Below, piece after piece: positions 774-55,995 of a stretch of DNA of 64,000 nt (within the stretch, counting starts at the first letter, position 1; each line of letters starts with the position of its first letter). The notes beneath the pieces were generated by a model. It did no database searches. It saw nothing but the letters and a program-made list of their open reading frames with translations, and had not been told where the DNA came from. The DNA is from Limnothrix sp. CACIAM 69d. GTDB taxonomy: Bacteria > Cyanobacteriota > Cyanobacteriia > CACIAM-69d. The DNA lies in contig MKGP02000003.1 in the NCBI GenBank assembly GCA_001913845.2, positions 1-64,000 of the forward strand, written 5' to 3'. A program made the translations under genes and the position numbers.

Positions 774-1364
774 CTAGTTGCGTAGCAGATTAATTGTGTC
801 ACTCACCCTGAACCTAGCAAACAAGGCCATGGTTCAGTCAACCATATGCACTGATTTCAAGAGCTGTTGATCAGGTTTCTAGTCATCGGTGCAATAATAC
901 CGTCACCTGCCACTGCGATCATCGCTTCAGCAAACGACCTAAAGTTTGACGATCACGATTTCCCAATTCCCCGTCGATGAGTCGCCCAGTATTATGGTCA
1001 TATGCTTTCCAGACCCATAATCTGTTTTTTTATCCTGGATGAAATGCCATAACTCATCTAGCTCAACGACGATTGCAGATTCTGGAGCTGGCTTTTCATA
1101 ATTGGCTTCGCCAAAATCTCTGACCCAATTCAGGACTGATTGAGCAGAGACACCGAGCAGTTTGGCTGTCGCGTTCATGGACATACCGCTGAGGTACATC
1201 AAAACAGCCTCCAATTTCATCCAAAGTGGCTTACCCCGCTCCTTAGAGAAGTTTGTAAATTGGTAGTGACAGTCTTTGCACTTAAATCGTTGACGACCTT
1301 TGACTAAACCACTCTTGATGACGCTTTGAGAGTCACATTGAGGACAGTGAATTGTCATAACCAA
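774..1364 (-). pseudogene. Decayed IS1-family transposase
   Basis: The N-terminal 140 codons are intact: a C4 zinc ribbon (CPQC at 7-10, CKDC at 29-32), a helix-turn-helix (MNATAKLLGVSAQSVLNW) and the first catalytic region (VELDELWHF). At a run of seven A (window 1025-1031 as T) the frame is lost. Reading on in the -1 frame restores typical IS1 InsB sequence, KNRLWVWKAYDHNTGRL, then a TGA, then YYCTDD followed by TAG where W is expected, then HMVD, another TGA, and TMALFARFRV ending at 774. The central part of InsB is shorter than normal, so there is also a deletion. Several stops, a frameshift and a deletion make this a dead element. I could not identify terminal inverted repeats. Confidence 0.85.
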
Positions 1365-6157: not shown

Positions 6158-6284
6158 GAGAATGTCTGAAAAGCCCAAATTGCTACTTTGTGCGCCCCAG
6201 CGATCAGCGTAAACAAGGGGATTAAGCCCCTTCCACGACGATTGGTGCTTGGCCCATGCCAAAAGATACTTTTCAAACATCTTC
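6158..6284. mobile_element. MITE-like element, copy A
   Basis: Starts GAGAATGTCTGAAAAG and ends CTTTTCAAACATCTTC, imperfect inverted copies of the family terminus. The centre carries a degraded form of the CAAGGGG-CCCCTT palindrome. The flanking triplets are TCA (left) and TAA (right); both fit a TNA target but are not identical, so this copy looks old. There is no coding capacity. Its right half, read on the minus strand, closely matches the left half of the copy at 32968. Confidence 0.75.
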
Positions 6285-15740: not shown

Positions 15741-15764
15741 GACAAGGGGCTTAAGCCCCTTGTC
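15741..15764. repeat. Isolated MITE-centre palindrome
   Basis: A perfect palindrome containing CAAGGGGCTTAAGCCCCTTG, the same sequence as the centre of the MITE family. The terminal repeats are absent here. It sits between the lysyl-tRNA synthetase stop and the downstream methyltransferase start, where it may act as a hairpin in the transcript. Confidence 0.8.
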
Positions 15765-31967: not shown

Positions 31968-32060
31968 GAAATCGGGGCTTTCCCGTTCGTCGGCAACCTT
32001 GATTCCACCGTGGCGAGATCGTGGGGTGCAAGGGGCTGAGGGCTGGTCGTCAAATTGCCT

Positions 32061-32210
32061 GAAACCCTAATGATCTCGTTCTCCCAACCAATCAGTCGGA
32101 GGGGCGGGGTCTCCTCGCCCAGTTCCCGTGATCCTTGGGTGTTCCCAGGGGTGAACAGGGTTAGGGCGATCGCCCGGGTTAGGGTTGGGAGACCCAATCC
32201 CTACGGCGAT
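32061..32210 (-). repeat. 150-bp hairpin repeat, copy 1
   Basis: Matches, in inverted orientation, the sequence at 61723-61875. It contains two potential hairpins: GGGCGGGG/CCTCGCCC and GGTTGGG/CCCAATCC. Hairpins of this CCCCGCCC type are common between genes in cyanobacteria. No coding potential. It lies between two convergent genes, so it may also terminate transcription. Confidence 0.8.
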
Positions 32211-32227
32211 GGAAATGACGACAGGCC

Positions 32228-32830
32228 CTAAGCCCAGGCCAGGTAAGGCAAACGGCCGGCAGTGGCCTGCACGGCCTCTCCTTGACTGACCAATTGACCG
32301 CAGCTATCCCACATGCCGCTGAGGAAGGCCTGGCGCGGCCCTTCCTTCATGGTGACGGTGATGGTTAAGTCCCCGATCGCGGCGGTCAGATTCACTAAAT
32401 CCAAGGAAACCGAGGCACTGGGGTTGGCCTCAATGGCCCCTTGCAACGCCAACACATCCTCATGGCTAGCTGTGACGCAGGGAATCCCGATCGCCACGCA
32501 ATTGCTAAAGAAGATTTCCGCAAAACTTTCGCCCACAATCGCCCCAATCCCCCAACGGGCGATCGCCTGGGGTGCATGTTCGCGGCTGGAACCACAACCA
32601 AAGTTACGATTCACCACCAACAGCTTGGCCCCTTGGTATTGAGCCTGATCAAAAGGATGCTCGCCGTTCAGTTGGGTGCGATCGTCCACAAAGGCATATT
32701 CACCCAACCCATCAAAGGTGACACAGCGCAGAAAGCGAGCCGGAATGATGCGATCGGTGTCAATGTCATCACCGCGTAACGGCAAACCAGTACCCGAAAC
32801 CCGCTGAACTTGACTGTTGATTTCGCTCAT
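32228..32830 (-). CDS. leuD: 3-isopropylmalate dehydratase small subunit
   Basis: A 200-aa LeuD swivel-domain protein. Together with LeuC (not in this window) it isomerises 2-isopropylmalate to 3-isopropylmalate in leucine synthesis. Signatures are [14 protein letters not shown] near 21-34 and [22 protein letters not shown] near 75, then [17 protein letters not shown]. Length and order are normal. Confidence 0.97.
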
Positions 32831-32967: not shown

Positions 32968-33098
32968 GAGGATGTCTGAAAAGTGTCTTTTGGCACGGGC
33001 AATGCACCAATAGTCGTGGGGGCAAGGGGCTTAAGCCCCTTGTCTTCGTCGATCGATGAGGCGTGTAGAGTATCGATTTTGGCTTTTCAGACATCCTC
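32968..33098. mobile_element. MITE-like element, copy B
   Basis: The best-defined copy: it begins GAGGATGTCTGAAAAG and ends CTTTTCAGACATCCTC, perfect 16-bp inverted repeats, flanked on both sides by TTA (32965-32967 and 33099-33101). The centre is CAAGGGGCTTAAGCCCCTTG at 33023-33042. 131 bp, no coding capacity. It lies between leuD and dnaA. Confidence 0.9.
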
Positions 33099-45571: not shown

Positions 45572-45600
45572 GAAGATGTCTGAAAAGTGCCTTCATGGCA
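45572..45600. repeat. Truncated MITE end, copy C
   Basis: GAAGATGTCTGAAAAG plus about 13 bp similar to the start of the other copies. Neither the palindromic centre nor the other terminus follows, so this is a solo end. Confidence 0.65.
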
Positions 45601-45688: not shown

Positions 45689-46333
45689 ATGGCTCTTAAG
45701 CTCTTCTTTTTGCGTCATGCTCAGACGGCCTACAGTGCATCCGGTGGTTATTGCGGCACGCCTGAAAATGATCCCGGCCTCACGCCCGAGGGGCATGAAA
45801 TGGCTGAGAAGTTCGCGATCGCCTATGCCTCCCTTGAGTGGACAGCCATTTACACCAGTCCGCTGCGCCGCGCCATCCAAACGGCAACGCCGCTGTGCGA
45901 AATGACGGGGCTGAATATGCAGTTGCGAGATGGGCTAAGGGAAATTGCCTACGGGAAGTGGGAAGGGTTGCACCCCCGCGAGGTCGATCGGATCTATCAC
46001 GATGACTATGTGCGGTGGCTGACGGATCCGGCTTGGAATGCGCCCACGGGAGGCGAGCGGGGTGTGGACATTGCCCGCCGGGCTTCATTGGTTCTGGACG
46101 AAATTGAGCGTCGTCACCCCACGGGTTCAGTGCTGTTGGTGTCCCATAAGGCGACGATTCGGATCTTGCTTTGTGTGTTGATGGGCATTGATGTGGGCCG
46201 CTATCGCGATCGCTTCTCGTTGCCGGTGGCGGGGTTGAATGTGGTGGAAATGAGCGATCGGGGGCCCCTGTTCCACAGTGTGGCCGATCGTAGTTATTTG
46301 GATGAACGATTGCGGGCCCTTCCTTCCACTTAA
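45689..46333 (+). CDS. Histidine phosphatase family protein
   Basis: A 214-aa phosphoglycerate-mutase-fold phosphatase. The phospho-accepting His is H10 in FLRHAQT (usual RHG/RHA), with the second basic pocket IYTSPLRRAIQTATPL, the acid in LREIAYGKWEG and the second His in LLVSHKATIRILL. Family members include alpha-ribazole phosphatases and broad phosphatases; the substrate cannot be told here. Length is typical. Confidence 0.88.
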   Translation: MALKLFFLRHAQTAYSASGGYCGTPENDPGLTPEGHEMAEKFAIAYASLEWTAIYTSPLRRAIQTATPLCEMTGLNMQLRDGLREIAYGKWEGLHPREVDRIYHDDYVRWLTDPAWNAPTGGERGVDIARRASLVLDEIERRHPTGSVLLVSHKATIRILLCVLMGIDVGRYRDRFSLPVAGLNVVEMSDRGPLFHSVADRSYLDERLRALPST

Positions 46334-46354
46334 TCAACTAAGACAAGGGACTTA

Positions 46355-46495
46355 GGGGGTATCGTCATTTTTCGAGGTGATGCTGAAACGGTTGATCTTC
46401 CATACCCTAATCGTCGTAACAAGGGGCTTAAGCCCCTTGTCCCCCACGACTACTAGTGCTTTACCAGTACCCCAAGTGATGTCTCAGACCTTTTC
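46355..46495. mobile_element. MITE-like element, copy D
   Basis: Flanked by TTA on both sides (46352-46354 and 46496-46498). The right end GTCTCAGACCTTTTC is a diverged family terminus and the left end GGGGGTATCGTC more so. The centre keeps CAAGGGGCTTAAGCCCCTTG at 46420-46439. Its right half matches that of the copy at 55804 better than others. 141 bp, noncoding. Confidence 0.7.
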
Positions 46496-46498
46496 TTA

Positions 46499-51388: not shown

Positions 51389-51711
51389 CTGCTGTCGATG
51401 AACCGTCAAAACTGCAATAAAAAAACTGCCTAGAACACCTAGCTTATCCGCTCCGGTCGTTGGCGCGCATCTCTTGATTCTGATGGCGCTGATTGCTTGG
51501 TCTGATGAGGTTGTCTGATGAGGTTGATTGAGCGGATTGGGCGGATTGCCGCTAACCCGTGCCCACAAGTCACGCTGCTAACCTGCGCTCCTAACCGGTT
51601 CCAATTCAATCGGGATTATTGACCGGAGCTGGCGGCACTTTGGCGGCATTTTGGCAGCACTCTGACCGATGATTGATTTCACCTGCTTGGCGATTCTTTT
51701 TTAGGTGGTCT

Positions 51712-55803: not shown

Positions 55804-55995
55804 GAGGATGTCTGAAAAGCCCACGCTACTACTTTGTGGATTGCATCGAGTGACGTTGCATCGAGCGACGTTGCATCGAGCGACGTTGCATTGAGCGACG
55901 TTGCATTGAGCGACGAAGACAAGGGGCTTAAGCCCCTTGCCCCCAAGGTTACGAGCACCTTCGCAAGTTCCCCAAGTGACTTCTCAGACATCCTC
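55804..55995. mobile_element. MITE-like element, copy E, with internal tandem repeat
   Basis: Begins GAGGATGTCTGAAAAG and ends CTTCTCAGACATCCTC, flanked by TCA on both sides (55801-55803, 55996-55998), a clean TNA duplication. The centre CAAGGGGCTTAAGCCCCTTG is at 55920-55939. 192 bp, longer than its relatives because of the tandem array at 55844-55917. Confidence 0.9.
55844..55917. repeat. 15-bp tandem array in MITE copy E
   Basis: About five copies of a 15-bp unit (GCATCGAGCGACGTT and one-base variants) side by side with no spacers. This expansion explains the extra length of this MITE copy. Confidence 0.85.

Follow-up and report, generated by a model that had tools for sequence, protein, structure and literature searches.

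The window analysed here, bases 1-64000 of contig C35, comes from a host draft genome of 4.57 Mb in 100 contigs, whose dnaA has an 'Oscillatoriales cyanobacterium' MAG as its nearest named record (94% protein identity). It contains copies of two MITE families, A and B, an element that combines both, and a palindrome that is located inside these elements and also on its own (Table 1). Five palindromes were found in the window (at 6214, 15743, 33023, 46420 and 55920), compared with 0 expected. Relatives available for comparison were two congeners (G001 and G002), along with three genomes from the same family; G002 is ~95% identical to the window and syntenic over most of its length. Host copies were read from searches and from stretches of the short-contig draft. 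An Rfam search of the window returned nothing above gathering score, and the terminus and palindrome strings were absent from the relevant literature searched. The window also carries an IS1-type ORF (939-1364, minus strand; InsA zinc ribbon, PF03811), and sequence similar to it breaks up a family A copy where host contig C13 ends.

Table 1. Repeat elements and their parts in the 64,000-base window.
Feature	Position	Strand	Remarks
MITE A copy, 127 bp	6158-6284	-	Flanks TCA/TAA; core 6214-6233; orthologous G002 site empty
Solo palindrome GACAAGGGGCTTAAGCCCCTTGTC, without MITE ends	15741-15764		Palindrome match at 15743
Family B variant, 189 bp	32040-32228		Inside palindrome-like site (GCAAGGGGCTGA...TAAGCCC)
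MITE A copy, 131 bp, perfect 16-bp ends	32968-33098	+	Flanks TTA/TTA; core 33023-33042
Single terminus-like 16-mer	45572-45587	+	No demonstrated tie to family A
A/B chimera, rearranged	46330-46498	-	TTA duplications at 46330 and 46496
Chimera: A-arm remnant	46333-46352	-	
Chimera: TA	46353-46354	-	
Chimera: B end and half	from 46355	-	
Chimera: core	46420-46439	-	
Chimera: A arm	46440-46495	-	
MITE A copy, 192 bp	55804-55995	-	Flanks TCA/TCA; core 55920-55939

Family A is well supported as an element of an ordinary kind, a MITE: it is short and non-coding (~131 bp), has inverted terminal repeats of 16 bp (GAGGATGTCTGAAAAG), occurs in many copies, and is flanked by a duplication of fixed type. 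An earlier note on this DNA had described a family of six, but the family is far larger, with 225 termini genome-wide at ≤2 mismatches (113 forward and 112 reverse, or ~110 element equivalents); a reversed-pattern control gave 0 matches across the whole genome. Within the window, eight terminus matches were found at ≤3 mismatches (0.47 expected), a number reached by 0 of 100 shuffles. The host sequence examined held 62 distinct complete copies with a consensus of 131 bp, of which 35 were exactly that length and 51 were flanked by identical TNA triplets. The terminus was indeed shared by both ends of the 6158, 32968 and 55804 copies, and the triplets flanking the latter two were identical, as had been claimed. 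Two supposed fragments were reassessed. The one at 15741 is a solo palindrome that lacks MITE ends and is also present in G002, where its position is conserved and its flanks have diverged, while the one at 45572 is a lone terminus-like 16-mer that is found at the orthologous place in G002 too; since it occurs in both species, it is not a recent insertion. A match at 51507 (3 mismatches) adjoins an indel relative to G002, but was rejected as an A copy because it is not MITE-like; ~174 bp at 51509-51682 are absent from G002 and are likewise not MITE-like.

Family A also shows insertion polymorphism. All four window A copies are absent from G002, in which clean empty sites were identified at 6158, 46330 and 55804, with one TTA at the second of these. 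The 32968 copy, which lies between dnaA and leuD, is missing from G002, where a larger flanking stretch also differs, and from the more distant L061. A further A copy (C35:76840) is missing from G002 too, with small local differences. The two checks proposed in the earlier note, for empty sites and for a transposase with matching ends, thus gave the results it anticipated: the sites are not all occupied, and such transposases exist in relatives. Its description of all copies as intergenic holds for three of them, but the insertion at 46330 falls within the upstream ORF's stop codon (TAG in G002, TAA in the host).

Judging by its ends, the mobility of family A would depend on a DUF4096/DDE_Tnp_1-type transposase of the IS5 family, in line with the IS5-type link suggested earlier. 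Autonomous elements with matching ends, either exact or with 1-3 differences, were found in related genomes. These include an 882-bp element with transposase code (L251; ends GAGGGTGTCTGAAAAG, flanks TTA/TTA), an 897-bp element in a same-family member (L245; ends GTGGATGTCTGAAAAG, flanks TAA/TAA), and an element encoding a 264-aa transposase (L290), which has A-like ends but unequal flanks (TCA/TAA). In addition, many contigs of G040 begin ~110 bases within an element that has transposase-like code and ends in the exact terminus. Pfam identified DUF4096 and DDE_Tnp_1 in L245 and L290. The identical TNA flanks of L251 and L245 resemble those of A, whereas these IS5-family elements are coding and ~880-1080 bp long, and sharing of their interiors with A was not seen. 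In the host draft, which breaks up multicopy IS elements and thereby affects such searches, PF13340 gave no match and PF01609 recovered just fragments of another IS (ends GAGCTGATTTATAAAGC) and no autonomous IS with family A ends. This other IS has a DUF4096-bearing full-length relative in G002; hence, the first part that is missing in the host probably represents an assembly gap, and the lack of an A-ended IS is therefore not proven. As none was found in the draft, we infer that the transposase acts in trans, and the IS supplying it has probably been lost from the host genome or lies within an assembly gap. It is improbable that the GAGCTGATTTATAAAGC element itself moves A through cross-recognition: although it has a DDE_Tnp_1/DDE_Tnp_1_2 transposase, TNA flanks in the host and the full-length relative mentioned above, of its 16 terminal positions, only about half are the same as in A. 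Other candidate partners were discarded. A DDE_Tnp_4 element of congener G001 (L221) is a different IS with ends AGACCTCTTGCACGAAT, pairs of termini spaced at IS length on C69 (706 bp) and C27 (704 bp) are neighbouring ends without a transposase, and two terminus matches in viral contigs both lay in apparent coding sequence. The AGACCTCTTGCACGAAT IS was also noted at the ends of host contigs C39 and C49 (L041 and L142), and similar ends interrupt an A copy at C39.

The central palindrome is shared by the MITE copies, as had been noted, but is not private to family A. This self-complementary 20-mer occurs at 317 host loci (≤1 mismatch) and covers 0.14% of the genome, and exact matches were found at 272 loci in G001, at 109 in G002, and in 26 of 145 cyanobacterial genomes representing 15 genera. 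In 462 kb of host sequence, a sample partly picked for its termini, complete A copies accounted for 12 of the 53 palindromes, 3 were near a single end and 38 were elsewhere, the last group including members of other repeats; just 2 of the 38 were within predicted ORFs. One solo palindrome of G002 (C16:63722) has no counterpart in the host. A third repeat family (TTAATACATTGGGTCAAAGTTGCGGAGCCAGTCGT...) has the palindromic core at mid-element (C24:36197, C24:133264 and C53:118642), and in the distant cyanobacterium G039 (L415-L420) the 20-mer belongs to yet another repeat, whose flanks are conserved, close to a B-like GGTATGTCATC sequence. Overall, the palindrome is a repeat in its own right, although its route of spread and its role are unproven.

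Folded as RNA, the 32968 copy is predicted to be highly stable on both strands (plus, -67.3 kcal/mol, z -8.1; minus, -50.5 kcal/mol, z -7.6), with a weaker fold for the decayed 6158 copy (z -2.5), and the solo palindrome at 15741 yields a perfect 10-bp stem. Any role of the hairpin is putative. The strong fold of the whole element, and the recognisable palindromic core kept in 60 of the 62 A copies, are what would be expected if the palindrome were native to family A and needed for its hairpin, with solo and B-borne copies being decayed or captured A derivatives. We consider this improbable too, given that palindromes outnumber A, are found in family B and alone, and are present in genomes, such as G004 and G013, where searching for exact matches did not reveal the A terminus. 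The palindrome could instead be a transcription terminator that is under selection and was captured by the MITEs, for which the perfect stem at 15741 and its placement relative to genes might speak. Palindromes outside A were found in 10 convergent, 17 tandem and 2 divergent intergenic regions (one count per region, with genes called by a simple longest-ORF approximation), such that convergent spaces were favoured and divergent ones avoided (P = 0.0095 by base pairs and 0.051 by number of regions). A directional terminator was rejected, since the palindromes showed no consistent strand relative to the genes next to them (8 with, 10 against and 2 ties). A terminator in general is unlikely, as T-runs are inconsistent and exact identity over hundreds of loci would be unnecessary.

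Somewhat more plausible, albeit still doubtful, is that the palindrome is a REP-like repeat with its own enzyme (e.g., a RAYT), which inserted into the ancestors of A and B. Its size (within 20-40 bp), copy number (>100), mostly intergenic position and convergent bias all resemble those of REPs, which are also known to serve as IS targets (PMC1525189). On the other hand, the GTAG tag of REPs is absent beside the stem, and no clean empty site was found for any solo palindrome. A CGTC lies a few bases past the stem in family A only, and not in most solo copies.

The second MITE, family B, is of mostly fixed length (142 bp), has inverted ends (GGGnnTGTCGTCA), and often carries the same core as A or a variant of it. 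Its target duplication is TA; of 32 candidate pairs of ends, some of them due to chance, 18 had a TA at either side. About 12 of 27 credible B copies were located in the centre of a palindrome (GGGGCT|TA|AGCCCC), as counted by eye from the list that includes chance pairs, and three A copies of 270-271 bp each consist of A with B inside its palindrome. For the variant at 32040-32228, G002 retains just a remnant of the B end. Elements with B-type ends (GGGCGTGTCATCA/GGGCGTGTCGTCA), TA flanks, and DUF4096 or DDE code were found in G018 (L232) and G004 (L235), the latter sitting in ggctta...taagcc; we take them to be IS427-like. L232 and L235 are similar to B in their ends and flanks, but they are coding, whereas B is a 142-bp element with the core. 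Nested elements arise when B, bearing the same core as A, enters the central TA of a palindrome, as it often does.

By its sequence, the copy at 46330-46498 is the only true chimera among the window copies. Read on the minus strand, it comprises the left half of A, the core and the right half of B, after which come a TA and a short residual piece of A's right arm. The earlier note had recognised a real copy here but placed its start at 46355, which is the B end; the bounding TTA duplications lie at 46330 and 46496. The note had also described arms shared in a mosaic way between copies. This mostly represents one element in opposite orientations, as both the 6158 copy (alignment score of 79.5 as reverse complement vs 28.0) and the 55804 copy are reverse complements relative to the 32968 copy, and is therefore not general evidence of recombination; the chimera alone bears the description out. 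At 55843-55915, one arm of the 55804 copy is lengthened by a tandem repeat of ~15 bp that resembles TTGCATCGAGCGACG, so that the copy reaches 192 bp. As to the putative order of events in the chimera, B would have inserted in the palindrome of A, creating direct repeats from an A half-palindrome and B's own core, and recombination between these repeats would leave the form now seen.

Cores also differ between copies that are otherwise the same. The 32968 copy and a copy at C27:24686 have identical arms (111/111) and different cores, CAAGGGGCTTAAGCCCCTTG (V0) and CAAGGGGCTTGAGCATCTTG (V1), respectively. V0 was found 71 times and V1 21 times in the host sequence examined; two simple V0/V1 intermediates, searched for in the same sequence, were found 0 times, and a partial core form, TTGAGCCTC, was seen twice. 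V1 is also present in other repeats, and two A copies carry it in inverted orientation with respect to their arms. These core differences could be due to exchange between copies or to template switching within a hairpin, while those seen in a single copy could include assembly errors, as the draft consists of short contigs. Correction of a quasi-palindrome toward its other half lacks positive support, as a search for the product it predicts, CAAGATGCTCGAGCATCTTG, gave no match. Recombination itself is supported by the A/B chimera and by copies with identical arms and differing cores, and we propose that it would proceed between homologous cores (by deletion, conversion or template switch), generating chimeras as well as core swaps between arm-sharing copies. 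Whether the core is an exchangeable module, serving as a target for one MITE family, a part of two families, and a solo repeat, with centres being swapped, is in our view evenly balanced. Taken as a whole, the best explanation is probably that family A is a MITE moved by an IS5-type transposase, that the core is a separate repeat, that B nests in palindromes, and that cores recombine.

The nearest precedents are a MITE of Coxiella burnetii and the REPs, both as IS targets and within palindromes. QMITE2 of C. burnetii is a MITE in which a REP palindrome serves as a target for IS1111 (PMC10969869); here, by comparison, the invader bears the same palindrome, which is common to two MITE families, and the ends differ. 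REPs are also found inside other palindromes (PMC3733652). REP elements and the IS that target them resemble the present case in that a short, abundant and intergenic palindrome is the insertion target, although the palindrome here lacks GTAG beside its stem and sits inside MITEs. Nezha (Zhou et al. 2008) is similar in being a small cyanobacterial MITE. Family A by itself would be one more IS5-driven MITE; it is the core, in being shared, targeted and exchanged, that is more worth following. A single genome displays the target, a palindrome-bearing invader, nested insertions, a resolved chimera and differences confined to the core, so that it becomes possible to test in cyanobacteria how chimeric MITEs originate and how REP-like palindromes spread. 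If the core is indeed exchanged, MITE families would evolve through the swapping of their centres, and the chimera and the identical-arm copies would be snapshots of this process.
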